Positions 1 through 52,964 of a DNA stretch of 64,000 bases are shown piece after piece (positions within the stretch are counted from its first letter, which is position 1; every line of letters begins with the position of its first letter). This stretch comes from Chlorobiaceae bacterium (GTDB lineage Bacteria > Bacteroidota > Chlorobiia > Chlorobiales > Chlorobiaceae): positions 1 to 64,000 of the forward strand of contig JAAXWO010000013.1 of the NCBI GenBank assembly GCA_013334965.1, read 5' to 3'. The notes below the pieces were generated by a model. It was not told the origin of the DNA. It was given only the letters and a program-made list of their open reading frames with translations, and ran no database searches. The translations under genes and the position numbers were made by a program.

Positions 1-56
1 GATAATGGATAATGGATAATGGATAATGGATAATGGATAATGGATAATGGATAATG
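1..56 (+). repeat. Tandem heptamer array GATAATG x8
   Basis: Eight perfect head-to-tail copies of the heptamer GATAATG run from the left edge and probably continue outside the window. They stop 22 bp before a four-helix-bundle gene. On the far side of that gene the same heptamer recurs in the opposite orientation, so the gene sits between inverted arrays. The purity of this copy suggests recent expansion. Confidence 0.95.
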
Positions 57-78
57 GAAGAGGGGAGGGGAGGGGGAG

Positions 79-441
79 ATGGAGGGGAATAGGGTCAAGG
101 AGTGCTCATTTATGTTTGCGCTTCGGATTGTAAAGCTCAGCCAGTTTTTGCAGGAGGAGAAAAAGGAGTATGTGCTCAGCAAGCAGCTTCTAAAATCCGG
201 TACGTCAATAGGTGCCCTTGTTCGTGAAGCTGAGCACGCTGAGAGCAAGGCCGATTTCATTCACAAGATGGCGATTGCTCTCAAAGAAGCTAATGAAACG
301 GTGTATTGGATTGACCTGCTCCACGAATCTCAAATACTTGAAAAGAAAGCTTTTGATTCAATCAATCCTGATATCATAGAACTTCTGAAATTGCTGACCA
401 GCATCGTCAAATCTTCAAAAATGAATCGCCTAGACACATAG
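79..441 (+). CDS. Four-helix-bundle (S23/IVP-like) protein
   Basis: A 120-residue all-helical protein. It matches the four helix bundle family first noticed in 23S rRNA intervening sequences and related to the Avd accessory protein of retroelements: an FALRIV-like helix near residues 12-19, SKQLLKSGTSIGA near 35-47, EAEHAESKADF, and ALKEANETVYWIDLL near 70-85. The start at 79 follows a purine-rich GGAGGGGGAG stretch, and the N-terminal NRVKECSF segment fits the family, so I prefer it to the internal Met at 112. The family has no established catalytic role; members bind RNA or DNA as pentamers. The gene is boxed in by inverted GATAATK heptamer arrays, which suggests gene plus arrays arrived as a unit (inference). 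Confidence 0.85.
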   Translation: MEGNRVKECSFMFALRIVKLSQFLQEEKKEYVLSKQLLKSGTSIGALVREAEHAESKADFIHKMAIALKEANETVYWIDLLHESQILEKKAFDSINPDIIELLKLLTSIVKSSKMNRLDT

Positions 442-455
442 CTGAAATTTTGTAT

Positions 456-559
456 TCCATTATCAATTATCAATTATCAATTATCCATTATCAATTATCA
501 ATTATCCATTATCCATTATCCATTATCAATTATCCATTATCCATTATCAATTATCAATT
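456..559 (-). repeat. Inverted heptamer array (ATTATCA/ATTATCC)
   Basis: About 15 heptamers alternating between ATTATCA and ATTATCC, the reverse complement of the GATAATK unit at the left edge. The array starts just after the four-helix-bundle stop codon and ends three bases before the hypC start codon, so it replaces the leader where a ribosome binding site would be expected. Transcripts across the two arrays could form a long A/U-rich stem around the gene. Confidence 0.95.
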
Positions 560-562
560 GTT

Positions 563-832
563 ATGTGTCTTGCCATACCGGGGAAAGTCATTGAAATCCG
601 TGATGAGAACGGCCTGAAAATGGGTACGGTCGACATCAGCGGCACCCTTACCAAAGCCTGCCTTGAATATGTGCCTGAAATCGCGATCGGCCAATACACC
701 ATCGTTCACGCCGGTTTCGCCCTGAAGATCATCGACGAGGAGGAGGCTGCAGAAAGCCTGAAGCTTTGGGACGAACTGATCAAGAGCGGTGCCTTCGACA
801 CGGGCCACGACCTGCCCCCATCCTCCCGATAA
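563..832 (+). CDS. hypC: Hydrogenase maturation chaperone HypC
   Basis: Small chaperone of 89 residues that, with HypD, carries the Fe(CN)2CO unit during [NiFe]-hydrogenase assembly in the cytoplasm. The start MCLAIPG, with the essential Cys2 and the conserved His49 (IVHAGFA), is diagnostic and fixes this ATG, because Cys2 must follow the initiator Met. No Shine-Dalgarno sequence precedes it: the 5' side is heptamer repeat almost up to the ATG. It is followed by hypD after a 10 bp gap and then hypE, so the three are one unit. The acidic tail after residue 60 is ordinary for the family. No hydrogenase structural genes lie in the window. Confidence 0.96.
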
Positions 833-2994: not shown

Positions 2995-3153
2995 GAATGT
3001 AAGAATGGACGGTATGGACGTAATGGACTTGATGGACTGAATGGACTTGATGGACTGAATGGACGAAGATTCAGGAGAATAGCTCTTTCTGCCCTGTCCA
3101 TAACGTCCATACCGTCCATGATTTCTTCGTCCATTCAGTCCATTCTTACATTC
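2995..3153. repeat. ATGGACNNN inverted-repeat element, copy 1
   Basis: An approximately 159 bp element between the convergent genes hypE and modE. It opens with GAATGTAAGAATGGAC, continues with seven ATGGACNNN nonamers (3005-3066), has a short core containing CGAAGATTCAGGA, and closes with the complementary units and GTCCATTCTTACATTC. The arms can pair almost end to end, giving a long stem in RNA read from either side, so it may act as a bidirectional 3' end. A second copy in the opposite orientation lies at 40983-41112 with the same ends and core. Confidence 0.9.
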
Positions 3154-4513: not shown

Positions 4514-4585
4514 GACTACTATTGTTTCGGTTATTAGTTATCTGAAAATCACTTACAGATCCTTCTGATTCCTCGCTACAGTTTC

Positions 4586-4684
4586 ACTATCAATTATCCA
4601 CTATCAATTATCCACTATCAATTATCAATTATCCATTATCCATTATCCATTATCCACTATCAATTATCAATTATCAATTATCAA
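4586..4684 (-). repeat. Solo heptamer array between nifB and ferredoxin
   Basis: About 14 tandem heptamers on the - strand (GATAATT, GATAATG and GATAGTG variants), running right up to the nifB stop codon. It is the same family as the arrays flanking the four-helix-bundle gene at the left edge, but here no gene is enclosed. It sits in what should be the leader of the ferredoxin gene. Confidence 0.93.
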
Positions 4685-5959
4685 CTACCCACACCCATTC
4701 CCCGTCCCCGAGCACCCCGACTTGCAGGCATGGATCTGGCTGCTCTTGATCAGGTGCTTCAGGTTCTGGCCGGTGAACAGTCCATAAACAGCCTCTTCGA
4801 TCACCCCTTCGATCGACAGGACCTCGATGCCGTGCGCGGTCAGTACCGATACCGGTGAATCACCGGCGCTGTTGACCAGGAGGGCGCGGCAGTCGTAGAG
4901 GACTTCAGCGAGTGCCGCCCAGCGCTCCTTGCCTCCGCCGGGCGGTGGCGCCTGCCGGGAATCGACCAGCGTGCAGCTCTTGTTTTCCTTGTCCAGCGCG
5001 TACACCAGGAACCTGTCGGCTTCGCCGAGATGCTGGTTGATGAGCACGCCCTCTATGCTTCCTACCGCGATGAAGGGGCGGTGATCTTCAGGATTTTTCG
5101 GCAGCAGTGCCGCTTCGGCCATCTTTGCATTGATCTCATCGGTGTTGATCTCTCCGATGATGCCCACCGCGTCTGCGCGGCAGCGGGCGCAATGTTTCAT
5201 CTGGGGCAGCAGCTTGCCGGCCTCCTCCTGGATTTCCAGAACCATGACGGGGTCGGGCTCGGGAATGTTCTCGAACACGGTTTCGGTCGTGTTGTAGTAG
5301 GGCATGGCGTTCAGGATGTCGGCACCCATGGCGGCGACCTGCCGAGCGACTTCCACGACGTGCGTGTCGTTGACGCCAGGGATGATGATCGAGTTCACTT
5401 TCGCCGTCACGCCAAGCCTCTTGAGCTTCTGCAATGCGGCGAGCTGGTTTTCGAGCAGCAGCTGGGCTCCCTGAAGGTCGCGGTACATGCGTTTCTGGTA
5501 GCGGACCCATGCGTAGATCTCCGCACCGATCTCCGGATCGATGGCGTTGATCGTCAGCGTCACGTGGCTCACCTGAAGATCGGCCAGTTCGTCGATGTAG
5601 GGCAGCACGTCGAGTCCGTTGGTGGCAACGCAGAGCAGCATCTCGGGATACTTTTTCCTGACGAGGCGAAGCGTTTCCATGGTCTCATCCGGATTGGCGA
5701 ACGGGTCGCCCGGTCCGGCGATACCCACCACCGAAATGTTCGGCGAGAGCTTCAGCGCGTTGTCGAGGTAGTAGAGGGCCTGGCCGGGCGAAAGCACCTT
5801 GCTGGTCACGCCGGGACGGTTCTCGTTCATGCAGTCGAACTTGCGGTTGCAGTAGTTGCACTGGATGTTGCATTTCGGCGCGACCGGCAGGTGGATTCGT
5901 CCGAACTTGTGCCGGGACGAGTCGTTGAAACAGGGATGGTTCTGGATATTGATTGTCAT
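4685..5959 (-). CDS. nifB: FeMo-cofactor biosynthesis radical SAM protein NifB
   Basis: A 424-residue enzyme that fuses two [4Fe-4S] clusters and inserts the central carbide to make NifB-co, the precursor of the nitrogenase cofactor. The radical SAM motif is CNIQCNYC (Cys30, Cys34, Cys37), with extra cysteines at 10 and 43 and ARC..CRADAVG near 260. The last third (IAVGSIEGVLINQHLGEA onward) is a NifX/NafY-like domain that can hold NifB-co; the tail ends in a Cys- and Gly-rich stretch. It follows nifN after 12 bp on the same strand. Length and domain order are those of the NifB-NifX form. Confidence 0.97.
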   Translation of the reverse strand: MTINIQNHPCFNDSSRHKFGRIHLPVAPKCNIQCNYCNRKFDCMNENRPGVTSKVLSPGQALYYLDNALKLSPNISVVGIAGPGDPFANPDETMETLRLVRKKYPEMLLCVATNGLDVLPYIDELADLQVSHVTLTINAIDPEIGAEIYAWVRYQKRMYRDLQGAQLLLENQLAALQKLKRLGVTAKVNSIIIPGVNDTHVVEVARQVAAMGADILNAMPYYNTTETVFENIPEPDPVMVLEIQEEAGKLLPQMKHCARCRADAVGIIGEINTDEINAKMAEAALLPKNPEDHRPFIAVGSIEGVLINQHLGEADRFLVYALDKENKSCTLVDSRQAPPPGGGKERWAALAEVLYDCRALLVNSAGDSPVSVLTAHGIEVLSIEGVIEEAVYGLFTGQNLKHLIKSSQIHACKSGCSGTGNGCG

Positions 5960-40995: not shown

Positions 40996-41112
40996 GAATG
41001 GACGGGATGGACTTGATGGACTTGATGGACAGGGGAGAGGGAAAGAAATATTCTTCTTCCTGAATCTTCGTCCATTCAGTCCATTACGTCCATCAAGTCC
41101 ATTCTTACATTC
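40983..41112. repeat. ATGGACNNN inverted-repeat element, copy 2
   Basis: An approximately 130 bp element between the convergent radical SAM and ABC transporter genes, in reverse orientation to copy 1. It shares the termini (GAATGTAAGAATGGAC and its complement) and a core with CCTGAATCTTCG, but has fewer nonamers. The radical SAM stop codon is inside its left end. The arms pair to form a long hairpin. Confidence 0.9.
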
Positions 41113-44622: not shown

Positions 44623-44687
44623 AATTATTCTCCTTTTTTCTGGTGGCGTTTAAAATGGTATTTTCAGGAAAAACACACGGTTGCTTC

Positions 44688-44701
44688 CTGTTAAATAACA
44701 G
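44688..44701. promoter_or_regulatory. Palindrome upstream of fmoA
   Basis: CTGTTAAATAACAG is a perfect inverted repeat with 6 bp arms and 2 bp spacer, 66 bp upstream of the fmoA start in a 240 bp AT-rich intergenic region shared with lnt. It could be an operator or promoter element; no known regulator is matched. Confidence 0.35.
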
Positions 44702-44862
44702 CTTGAAAGAAAATTAAAGAATAAATATTAATAAATAAAGGAAAATATGTCTGTTGCCGGCTTCTATCGCTATTCGTTGTTTTTTGACTGCATGGCCGGC
44801 CTTGAATATCATGGACTACGGGCCAGTAACCTTTTCCGGTCATTGCGACGATCCTTTGCATC

Positions 44863-52586: not shown

Positions 52587-52687
52587 GACGTGACGCGTGA
52601 TGCGTGACGCGTGACGGAAAGCGGGGATGGTATTTACTGGTTTTATGAGGTTTTGGCCCGGGTGATCCGAAAAGTTGAAACATTAAG

Positions 52688-52727
52688 AGCTTCCCTGCAA
52701 GGTTGTATCGCGGGGAAGCTTTTTTTT
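52688..52727 (+). terminator. Terminator after peroxiredoxin
   Basis: AGCTTCCC and GGGAAGCT pair around a 17-base loop and are followed by seven T residues on the + strand. It stops peroxiredoxin transcripts before the long heptamer run. Confidence 0.88.
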
Positions 52728-52866
52728 GTGGGGATGTAATCCGTGACCCGTGACCCGTGACCCGTGACCCGTGACCCGTGACCCGTGACTCGTGACTCGT
52801 GACTCGTGACGCGTGACGCGTGACGCGTAACCCGTGACCCGTGACGTGTCACGCCGTCACGAAAAT

Positions 52867-52904
52867 CATGGAAGTAATGGACGGGATGGACGTAATGGAC
52901 CATG
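52867..52904. repeat. Fragment of the ATGGACNNN element
   Basis: Three ATGGACNNN-type units within CATGGA...CCATG ends, lying inside the GTGACSC repeat region. It has the nonamer but not the GAATGTAAG termini of the two full copies, so it looks like a decayed or minimal copy. Confidence 0.7.
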
Positions 52905-52964
52905 AAGGAGCGAATACCCGACGCACCTTACTTTACGCGTCACGCGTCACGCGTCACGGATTTT

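Follow-up and report, generated by a model that had tools for sequence, protein, structure and literature searches.

The cyanobacterial heptamer tandem repeats known as STRR are 7-nt arrays that are mostly intergenic and patchily distributed across phyla. In systems of repetitive extragenic palindromes with their associated transposases (REP-RAYT), miniature inverted-repeat transposable elements (MITEs) and insertion sequences (ISs), a gene or other internal part lies between inverted ends, and related ends are scattered in the genome. The locus described here, which bears on both, stands at the start of a 64,000-nt stretch of a Chlorobiaceae bacterium (the window; contig JAAXWO010000013.1 of assembly GCA_013334965.1) and consists of a gene for a 23S rRNA intervening-sequence-type protein (IVP) between arrays of 7-nt repeats. 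Proteins of this family (S23p/IVP) are encoded by the intervening sequences (IVSs) in the 23S rRNA of Leptospira and Coxiella, which also have paired inverted termini and a size near 430 nt. According to passages of PMC4990558, the termini of the Coxiella IVS pair and RNase III excises it, up to three tandem heptamers (GACAGAT) precede the S23p open reading frame (ORF), the IVS is termed a selfish element, and a ring-shaped pentamer is known for an IVP relative. Passages on the TAACTGA (PMC4679880) and GGGAATC (PMC4692102) heptamer repeats likewise describe 7-nt arrays that are mostly intergenic and patchy across phyla; horizontal transmission of the former was suspected, 'but no mechanism is evident', and the latter were generally not found with mobile elements. 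The terms 'helix bundle' and 'S23' have no occurrence in the main texts of these two papers, the terms searched in PMC11270868 gave no match, and among the matches listed from the open-access PMC literature none linked heptamer arrays to free-standing four-helix-bundle genes.

The arrangement in the window is best read as a minimal insertion element, in which one IVP gene lies between oppositely oriented 7-nt arrays that serve as terminal inverted repeats; we place the probability of this reading at about 0.7. That gene and arrays form a single unit, and that this unit was inserted, is close to certain. The unit and its neighbor are laid out as follows:

1 to 58, plus strand: upstream arm, tandem heptads GATAATG (8.3 copies, 100% match in Tandem Repeats Finder, TRF); the register AATGGAT fits ARTKNNN
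79 to 441, plus strand: IVP gene, encoding a four-helix bundle of 120 amino acids (ORF with PF05635 and TIGR02436 matches)
459 to 559, minus strand: downstream arm, inverse heptads ATTATCM (TRF: ATTATCA, 14.4 copies, 93% match)
563 to 832, plus strand: hypC, the host gene at the right edge of the unit (profile matches)

An initial annotation, made from the letters of the window alone, had reported eight GATAATG units before the gene and their inverse after it, with the two complementary arrays bracketing the whole four-helix-bundle gene. These coordinates bear out that layout; the upstream count of eight is what is seen, but the array is truncated at position 1, which is the edge of the contig. 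The window contains 24 copies of GATAATG, a number reached in none of 100 shuffles; 6.2 are expected. The protein belongs to PF05635 (E=1.1e-25, 90.4 bits, curated cut-off 33.8) and TIGR02436 (E=5.9e-28, 97.3 bits, curated cut-off 24), and its sole match among solved structures is 2rld (E=1.1e-35). It is the only family match between the arms, where no transposase or recombinase was found.

The unit shares inverted, pairing termini around an ORF with the rRNA IVSs, terminal inverted repeats (here the inverse heptad arrays) with ISs and MITEs, and tandem 7-nt units with the STRR-like repeats. Unlike the rRNA IVSs, it lies between protein genes and has heptad arrays on both sides; no rRNA was detected in the window at gathering scores, and an Rfam scan of 20 IVP loci from the cross-phylum set of 80 described below found no rRNA and only one tRNA. 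Unlike the TAACTGA and GGGAATC repeats, its arrays are linked to a gene and arranged as inverted arms. It differs from REP-RAYT, MITE and IS systems in having no transposase and in ends that are set by a period and a half-fixed motif, not by one sequence.

The association of heptad arrays with IVP genes extends well beyond the window. In the bacterial family of the window, 55 IVP matches were found in 41 of 86 genomes; 51 were read (four were not fetched), and 46 had at least 60 nt on both sides, the other five being dropped. The initial annotation had proposed counting arrays at four-helix-bundle genes and at other genes, and the association it anticipated is present: a lag-7 array lies within 300 nt at 33 of the 46 loci, against 6 of 300 control genes (20 regions in 10 genomes). 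Chance repeats were rejected as an explanation because lags 5, 6 and 8-11 gave 0 or 1 of 46. Inverted-arm complementarity exceeded the 99th percentile of the controls at 28 of 46 loci, and grouping the loci by their flanks gave 20 sites, of which 15 had arrays and 9 had inverted arms above threshold. A general tendency of small accessory genes to draw arrays was likewise rejected, since ParE toxin genes from the same bacterial family had arrays in 1 of 30 cases and inverted arms in none of 30.

Among 80 cross-phylum loci, which are the best 80 of 581 matches for subfamily B and so not a random set, arrays were present at 43, compared with 5 of 139 control windows that were not gene-based; other lags gave 0-2 of 80, and 65 of the 80 had inverted arms above the control 99th percentile. 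Bacteroidota, Clostridia, Gammaproteobacteria, Verrucomicrobia and Leptospiraceae are among the groups given in the record titles, which may be in error for the many metagenome bins in the set. Plasmids contributed 16 loci, for the most part from cyanobacteria and with no matched control; they came from 17 hand-picked and fetched records out of 59 matches in the first two lists; 13 had arrays and 12 had an inverted-arm score above 13. At two of the plasmid loci (L230 and L231) the annotated coding sequence extends into the inverse array, which lowers the arm scores to 10.0 and 9.5. In the phylum of the window, where 208 of the 296 genomes searched have PF05635/TIGR02436 matches (at most 15 per genome), inverted arms were found at 11 of the 29 best-scoring copies versus 0 of 58 controls, and at 9 of 20 further reads, four of which repeat the 29. 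Autocorrelation peaks at 7, 14 and 21 appear in all four samples, including these 29 copies. Control regions, like the blocks of the window's own genome analyzed below, were placed manually at grid positions and are not random draws.

The arms follow a common rule. One seven-position profile (A, R, T, K, R, W, N) fits 103 arms, with no gain at periods 5, 6, 8 or 9; these arms are not fully independent, since L115 is apparently the G026 locus, also in the family set, and L228 and L229 are near-copies. Of 42 consensus heptads, 39 contain the motif ARTK, whereas 500 rounds of shuffling gave 16.8 on average and never more than 27. The ARTG count is higher in the upstream arm than in its complement at 63 loci, with the reverse at 2 and ties at 38. 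Polar ARTKNNN ends oriented with respect to the gene are very probably a general feature of these units. The heptamer is not one fixed sequence, however, as the NNN portion varies from unit to unit. The initial annotation had taken the heptamer to be the mark of the unit; no single fixed heptamer serves as such, and arrays also occur without the gene. The paired inverted layout is not universal either: some loci have same-direction arrays or none. Heptad distance and protein distance show a weak correlation (Mantel 0.166, P 0.0045), as expected if heptads and protein travel together.

Comparison of filled and empty sites at gene junctions shows that gene and arms are either both there or both missing, as one block. 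More specifically, four Nostoc plasmids (L345-L348), 91.6-94.0% identical over the matched parts, lack the unit (two further matches, at 87.7% and 75.3%, were not read); in these and in plasmid pNsp_c the stop codon of gene A is followed by a 3-nt gap and the start of gene B, with no array. In the filled plasmids L230, L342 and L343, a block of heptads, IVP gene and inverse heptads occupies the site of that gap, and in two units at this site the IVP is the only annotated gene. One gene farther on, pNsp_c carries a different IVP unit; the corresponding place in C052 pA is an overlapping TAATG stop/start, and two other plasmids have short gaps there. Homology of the first Nostoc unit to plasmids of Aulosira, Trichormus and Scytonema is restricted to 401-419 nt, and in our reading the latter two share one context, giving two other contexts in all. 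Together with the association above, this joint presence and absence supports the proposal of the initial annotation that gene and arrays were inserted or spread as one unit. Candidate target-site duplications at the two Nostoc sites are TTCTA/TTCTG and TAATG/TTATG, which may instead be microhomology.

IVP genes also split conserved pairs of operon genes: cas6/cas4 in two species, cmr2/cmr3, hsdS/hsdR and cas2/cas1, with arm scores of 28.0, 30.5, 14.5 (not heptad), 12.0 and 29.5, respectively. Nostoc edaphicum has the order nrdB/IVP/nrdA, and a related sequence in Calothrix NIES-4105 (85.3% identity) has no IVP there. Both orientations relative to the neighboring genes occur, and some units are antisense to the host operon. 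The identical IVP regions of two Calothrix plasmids (L228/L229) do not demonstrate transposition, as the plasmids also share about 3.5 kb of surrounding sequence. Three single cases may be recorded here. At L046 (417-3317) an IVP gene lies inside the BREX-1 gene pglX, where the frame is open throughout (967-aa ORF; NF033452 in two stretches) and more heptad-like stretches stand in frame; this is the only in-gene case in the family set, in a test that needed 200 nt on both sides. At L340, a record labelled as a Riemerella plasmid, an annotated IVP has an iron-sulfur assembly accessory gene on one side and sufB on the other, in another conserved operon. In Nostoc N6 (L342, about 1560-1610) an IVP gene is apparently interrupted by a gene-less inverted heptad hairpin, hinting that such hairpins can also insert.

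The window's own site was examined in relatives. A second contig of the genome, C8, opens with an array of this type, after which comes hypF (TIGR00143, E=4.7e-235) in the opposite orientation, and relatives have hypF, IVP and hypC in one piece; the unit is therefore placed between hypF and hypC, and the order hypF-array-IVP-array-hypC, with its join of C8 to the window's contig (C4), is inferred from those relatives. Read by eye, the hypF stop codon falls in heptad-like sequence. Four contig ends of this genome lie inside GATAATG arrays (the ends of C2 and C12, the starts of C4 and C8), and these arrays seem to break the assembly. Of 55 hypC matches in 61 genomes, 30 were made into loci and read: the IVP with heptad arms is present in 12 and absent in 18, so that the outcome which the initial annotation had named as adverse, a gene at this locus in all relatives without arrays, was not found. 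By our reading, at least five of the 18 IVP-free loci have inverted nonamer arrays; gene-less inverted nonamers (GTCCAYNNN and inverse) lie in the gap at L197, L204, L209, L210 and L213, and nonamer arrays are also present in the window at 3003-3065, 40998-41030 and 41069-41103. One relative (G020) has heptads in the gap and no IVP.

Across the 12 filled loci, left and right arms co-vary at the A/G position (rho 0.93) and at the G/T position (rho 0.80), with a joint permutation P of 0.0004 over three features, and independent contrasts for the first two gave r 0.71-0.95 (P 0.013-0.021). The IVP tree is partly congruent with the hyp tree (Mantel r 0.34, P 0.004; G015 and G026 discordant), and the unit at this site appears to be of long standing, with inheritance that is vertical at least in part. 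The ratio of nonsynonymous to synonymous substitution rates (dN/dS) of the IVP orthologues has a median of 0.088 (range 0.035-0.157) in 45 of 66 pairs, the other 21 being saturated and left out; the IVP at hypF-hypC is under purifying selection, in contrast to the Coxiella ORF, which a passage of PMC4990558 reports to be in reductive evolution. Among 154 IVP proteins, Q36 (0.99), E50 (0.99) and E73 (1.00) are near-invariant, which suggests a functional site.

Heptad arrays without an IVP gene also occur in the window, as follows:

4585 to 4687, no strand assigned: GATAATK-type array without an IVP gene (TRF)
52589 to 52958, no strand assigned: gene-less GTGACNC-type heptad group (arrays at 52589-52616 and 52741-52845, inverse at 52935-52958)

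The genome has further GATAATK arrays and only two IVP matches above the family cut-off, so most arrays have no IVP gene beside them. Two weak PF05635 matches below the cut-off (G000:C12:437889-438098 and G000:C15:73663-73869) lie inside longer open frames of 267 and 270 aa. The second IVP, on contig C7, is cut short by TGA and is likewise flanked by arrays, here of a different heptad (GACGCGA-type, 35 copies, upstream; a 42-nt unit of ACGCGTC-like heptads downstream), which the GTGACNC-type group in the window resembles. A 464-kb sample of this genome contains 12 lag-7 arrays, two of them the window unit's own, and none at lags 5, 6, 8 and 10; lag 9 comes next in frequency, with 7 arrays. By our own grouping, 11 of the 12 lag-7 arrays were assigned to the two heptad families that go with the resident IVP genes. 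A strict dependence of one array family on one IVP, in turn, failed. GATAATK arrays occur in 9 of 14 genomes assigned this IVP subfamily versus 7 of 72 others, and within genus g1 the link is weak (7 of 11 with the subfamily, 4 of 10 without, by hand count); GGCAGTK arrays occur in 3 of 3 predicted genomes and in 7 others. Elsewhere in the window, an Lnt RNA (RF01711) lies at 44665-44724 (69.2 bits).

Several observations weigh against the interpretation as an insertion element. Thirteen of the 46 family loci have no strict array, and in nine same-direction similarity exceeds the control 99th percentile, with L051, L055 and L056 having no inverted arm; strict lag-7 arrays are rare at the 29 phylum copies (2, against 1 in their 58 controls). 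Two operon splits have weak or non-heptad arms (L226, inverted score 14.5 with no lag-7 array; L236, 12.0), and the third co-variation feature at hypF-hypC (the C/T position of GAY) is not significant (rho 0.27, P 0.40). Among the ten genomes in which GGCAGTK arrays occur, five lack an IVP match at 1e-8 (for example G070, with 81 pattern matches), and two carry other IVP subfamilies. No movement event was observed, target duplication is not firmly established at the Nostoc sites, the unit has no recombinase, and IVP copies within one genome are 35-57% identical, with no recent duplicates among 20 of 60 matches from 5 genomes.

Among alternative explanations, an RNA-stem element of the rRNA IVS kind fares best, although it too is unlikely. 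Here the arms would pair in the transcript, RNase III would cut, the insert would leave the host RNA, and selection on the RNA stem would keep the arms complementary. The predicted fold of window positions 1-562 does pair the two arms (z=-6.9), and the Coxiella IVS, with its pairing termini, RNase III excision and heptamers before the ORF, offers a precedent. Selection on an RNA stem would be expected to leave mismatches that RNA tolerates, yet over the 103 loci there are 89 G.U and 91 A.C mismatches, without overall bias; by subset the counts are 35 and 21 in the family (P 0.08), 36 and 36 across phyla, 7 and 21 on plasmids (P 0.01, in the opposite direction) and 11 and 13 in the phylum copies. 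Moreover, the units antisense to the host operon do not fit this model. Complementarity of the arms thus looks to be kept at the DNA level, and DNA-level homogenization appears favored over RNA-stem selection, though the predicted RNA stem is strong.

It is improbable that the tandem heptad hairpins came first, as simple repeats, and that an IVP gene inserted into or between them later. Gene-less arrays are indeed common, nonamer arrays fill the hypF-hypC gap in IVP-free relatives and G020 has heptads there. Yet the empty Nostoc sites are array-free, with a 3-nt gap or a stop/start overlap, which already weakens this model; the polarity of the arms relative to the gene is fixed (63 versus 2), and a related unit is found with its arms in different contexts. 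There is little likelihood, too, that the IVP is an ordinary accessory gene, with arrays that act in expression or translation and an association due to descent and not to mobility. The low dN/dS, the partial tree congruence and the age of the same-genome copies examined accord with such a gene, and a passage of PMC4679880 proposes a translational role for TAACTGA heptamers; however, this account leaves the inverse downstream array unexplained and fits poorly with block presence and absence and with IVP genes that split cas, nrd and hsd operon genes or sit inside pglX. A reverse transcriptase (RT) accessory like Avd of diversity-generating retroelements, with the arrays as retro-products, is very improbable: sequence and structural similarity of PF05635 to Avd, a related fold, is published (in a passage of PMC10053308), but the unit holds no RT (no search was made for template and variable repeats) and there is no association of IVP with RT (Fisher P 0.21), and dependence on an RT was rejected because 13 of 41 IVP-bearing family genomes, including the single-contig G002, G015 and G019, have no PF00078 match at 1e-10.

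If the unit is a minimal insertion element, its behavior may be sketched from the sequence comparisons. The IVP, which probably forms a ring-shaped oligomer as its solved relatives do, would bind the heptad ends, with Q36, E50 and E73 taking part in its action on them, and would promote insertion, perhaps with host replication or repair. The arms would lengthen by 7-nt slippage and stay complementary at the DNA level through the copying of one arm from the other, and gene-less heptad arrays in the same genomes would be decayed or trans-mobilized ends. Direct action of the IVP on the heptad ends is put forward tentatively. More speculative still is the wider proposal that free-standing IVP genes may represent a new class of mobile element, in which a single four-helix-bundle protein that is not a recombinase would recognize ends defined by a period and a half-fixed motif (ARTKNNN), homogenize or extend them, insert the unit at gene junctions and seed scattered heptamer arrays in trans in cyanobacteria, Bacteroidota, Chlorobi and others, the rRNA IVSs being a special case inside rRNA.

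Thus, a common protein family without a settled function gains a testable role as the cargo of a defined insertion unit, and since many bacterial groups share this layout, the identity of this widespread gene family as a minimal mobile element is likely. The units are also a candidate source for heptamer repeats that have been unexplained, and tie these to the rRNA IVSs. Finally, the IVP genes in cas loci, of which a passage in PMC3936711 counts 18, may be passengers and not CRISPR components.
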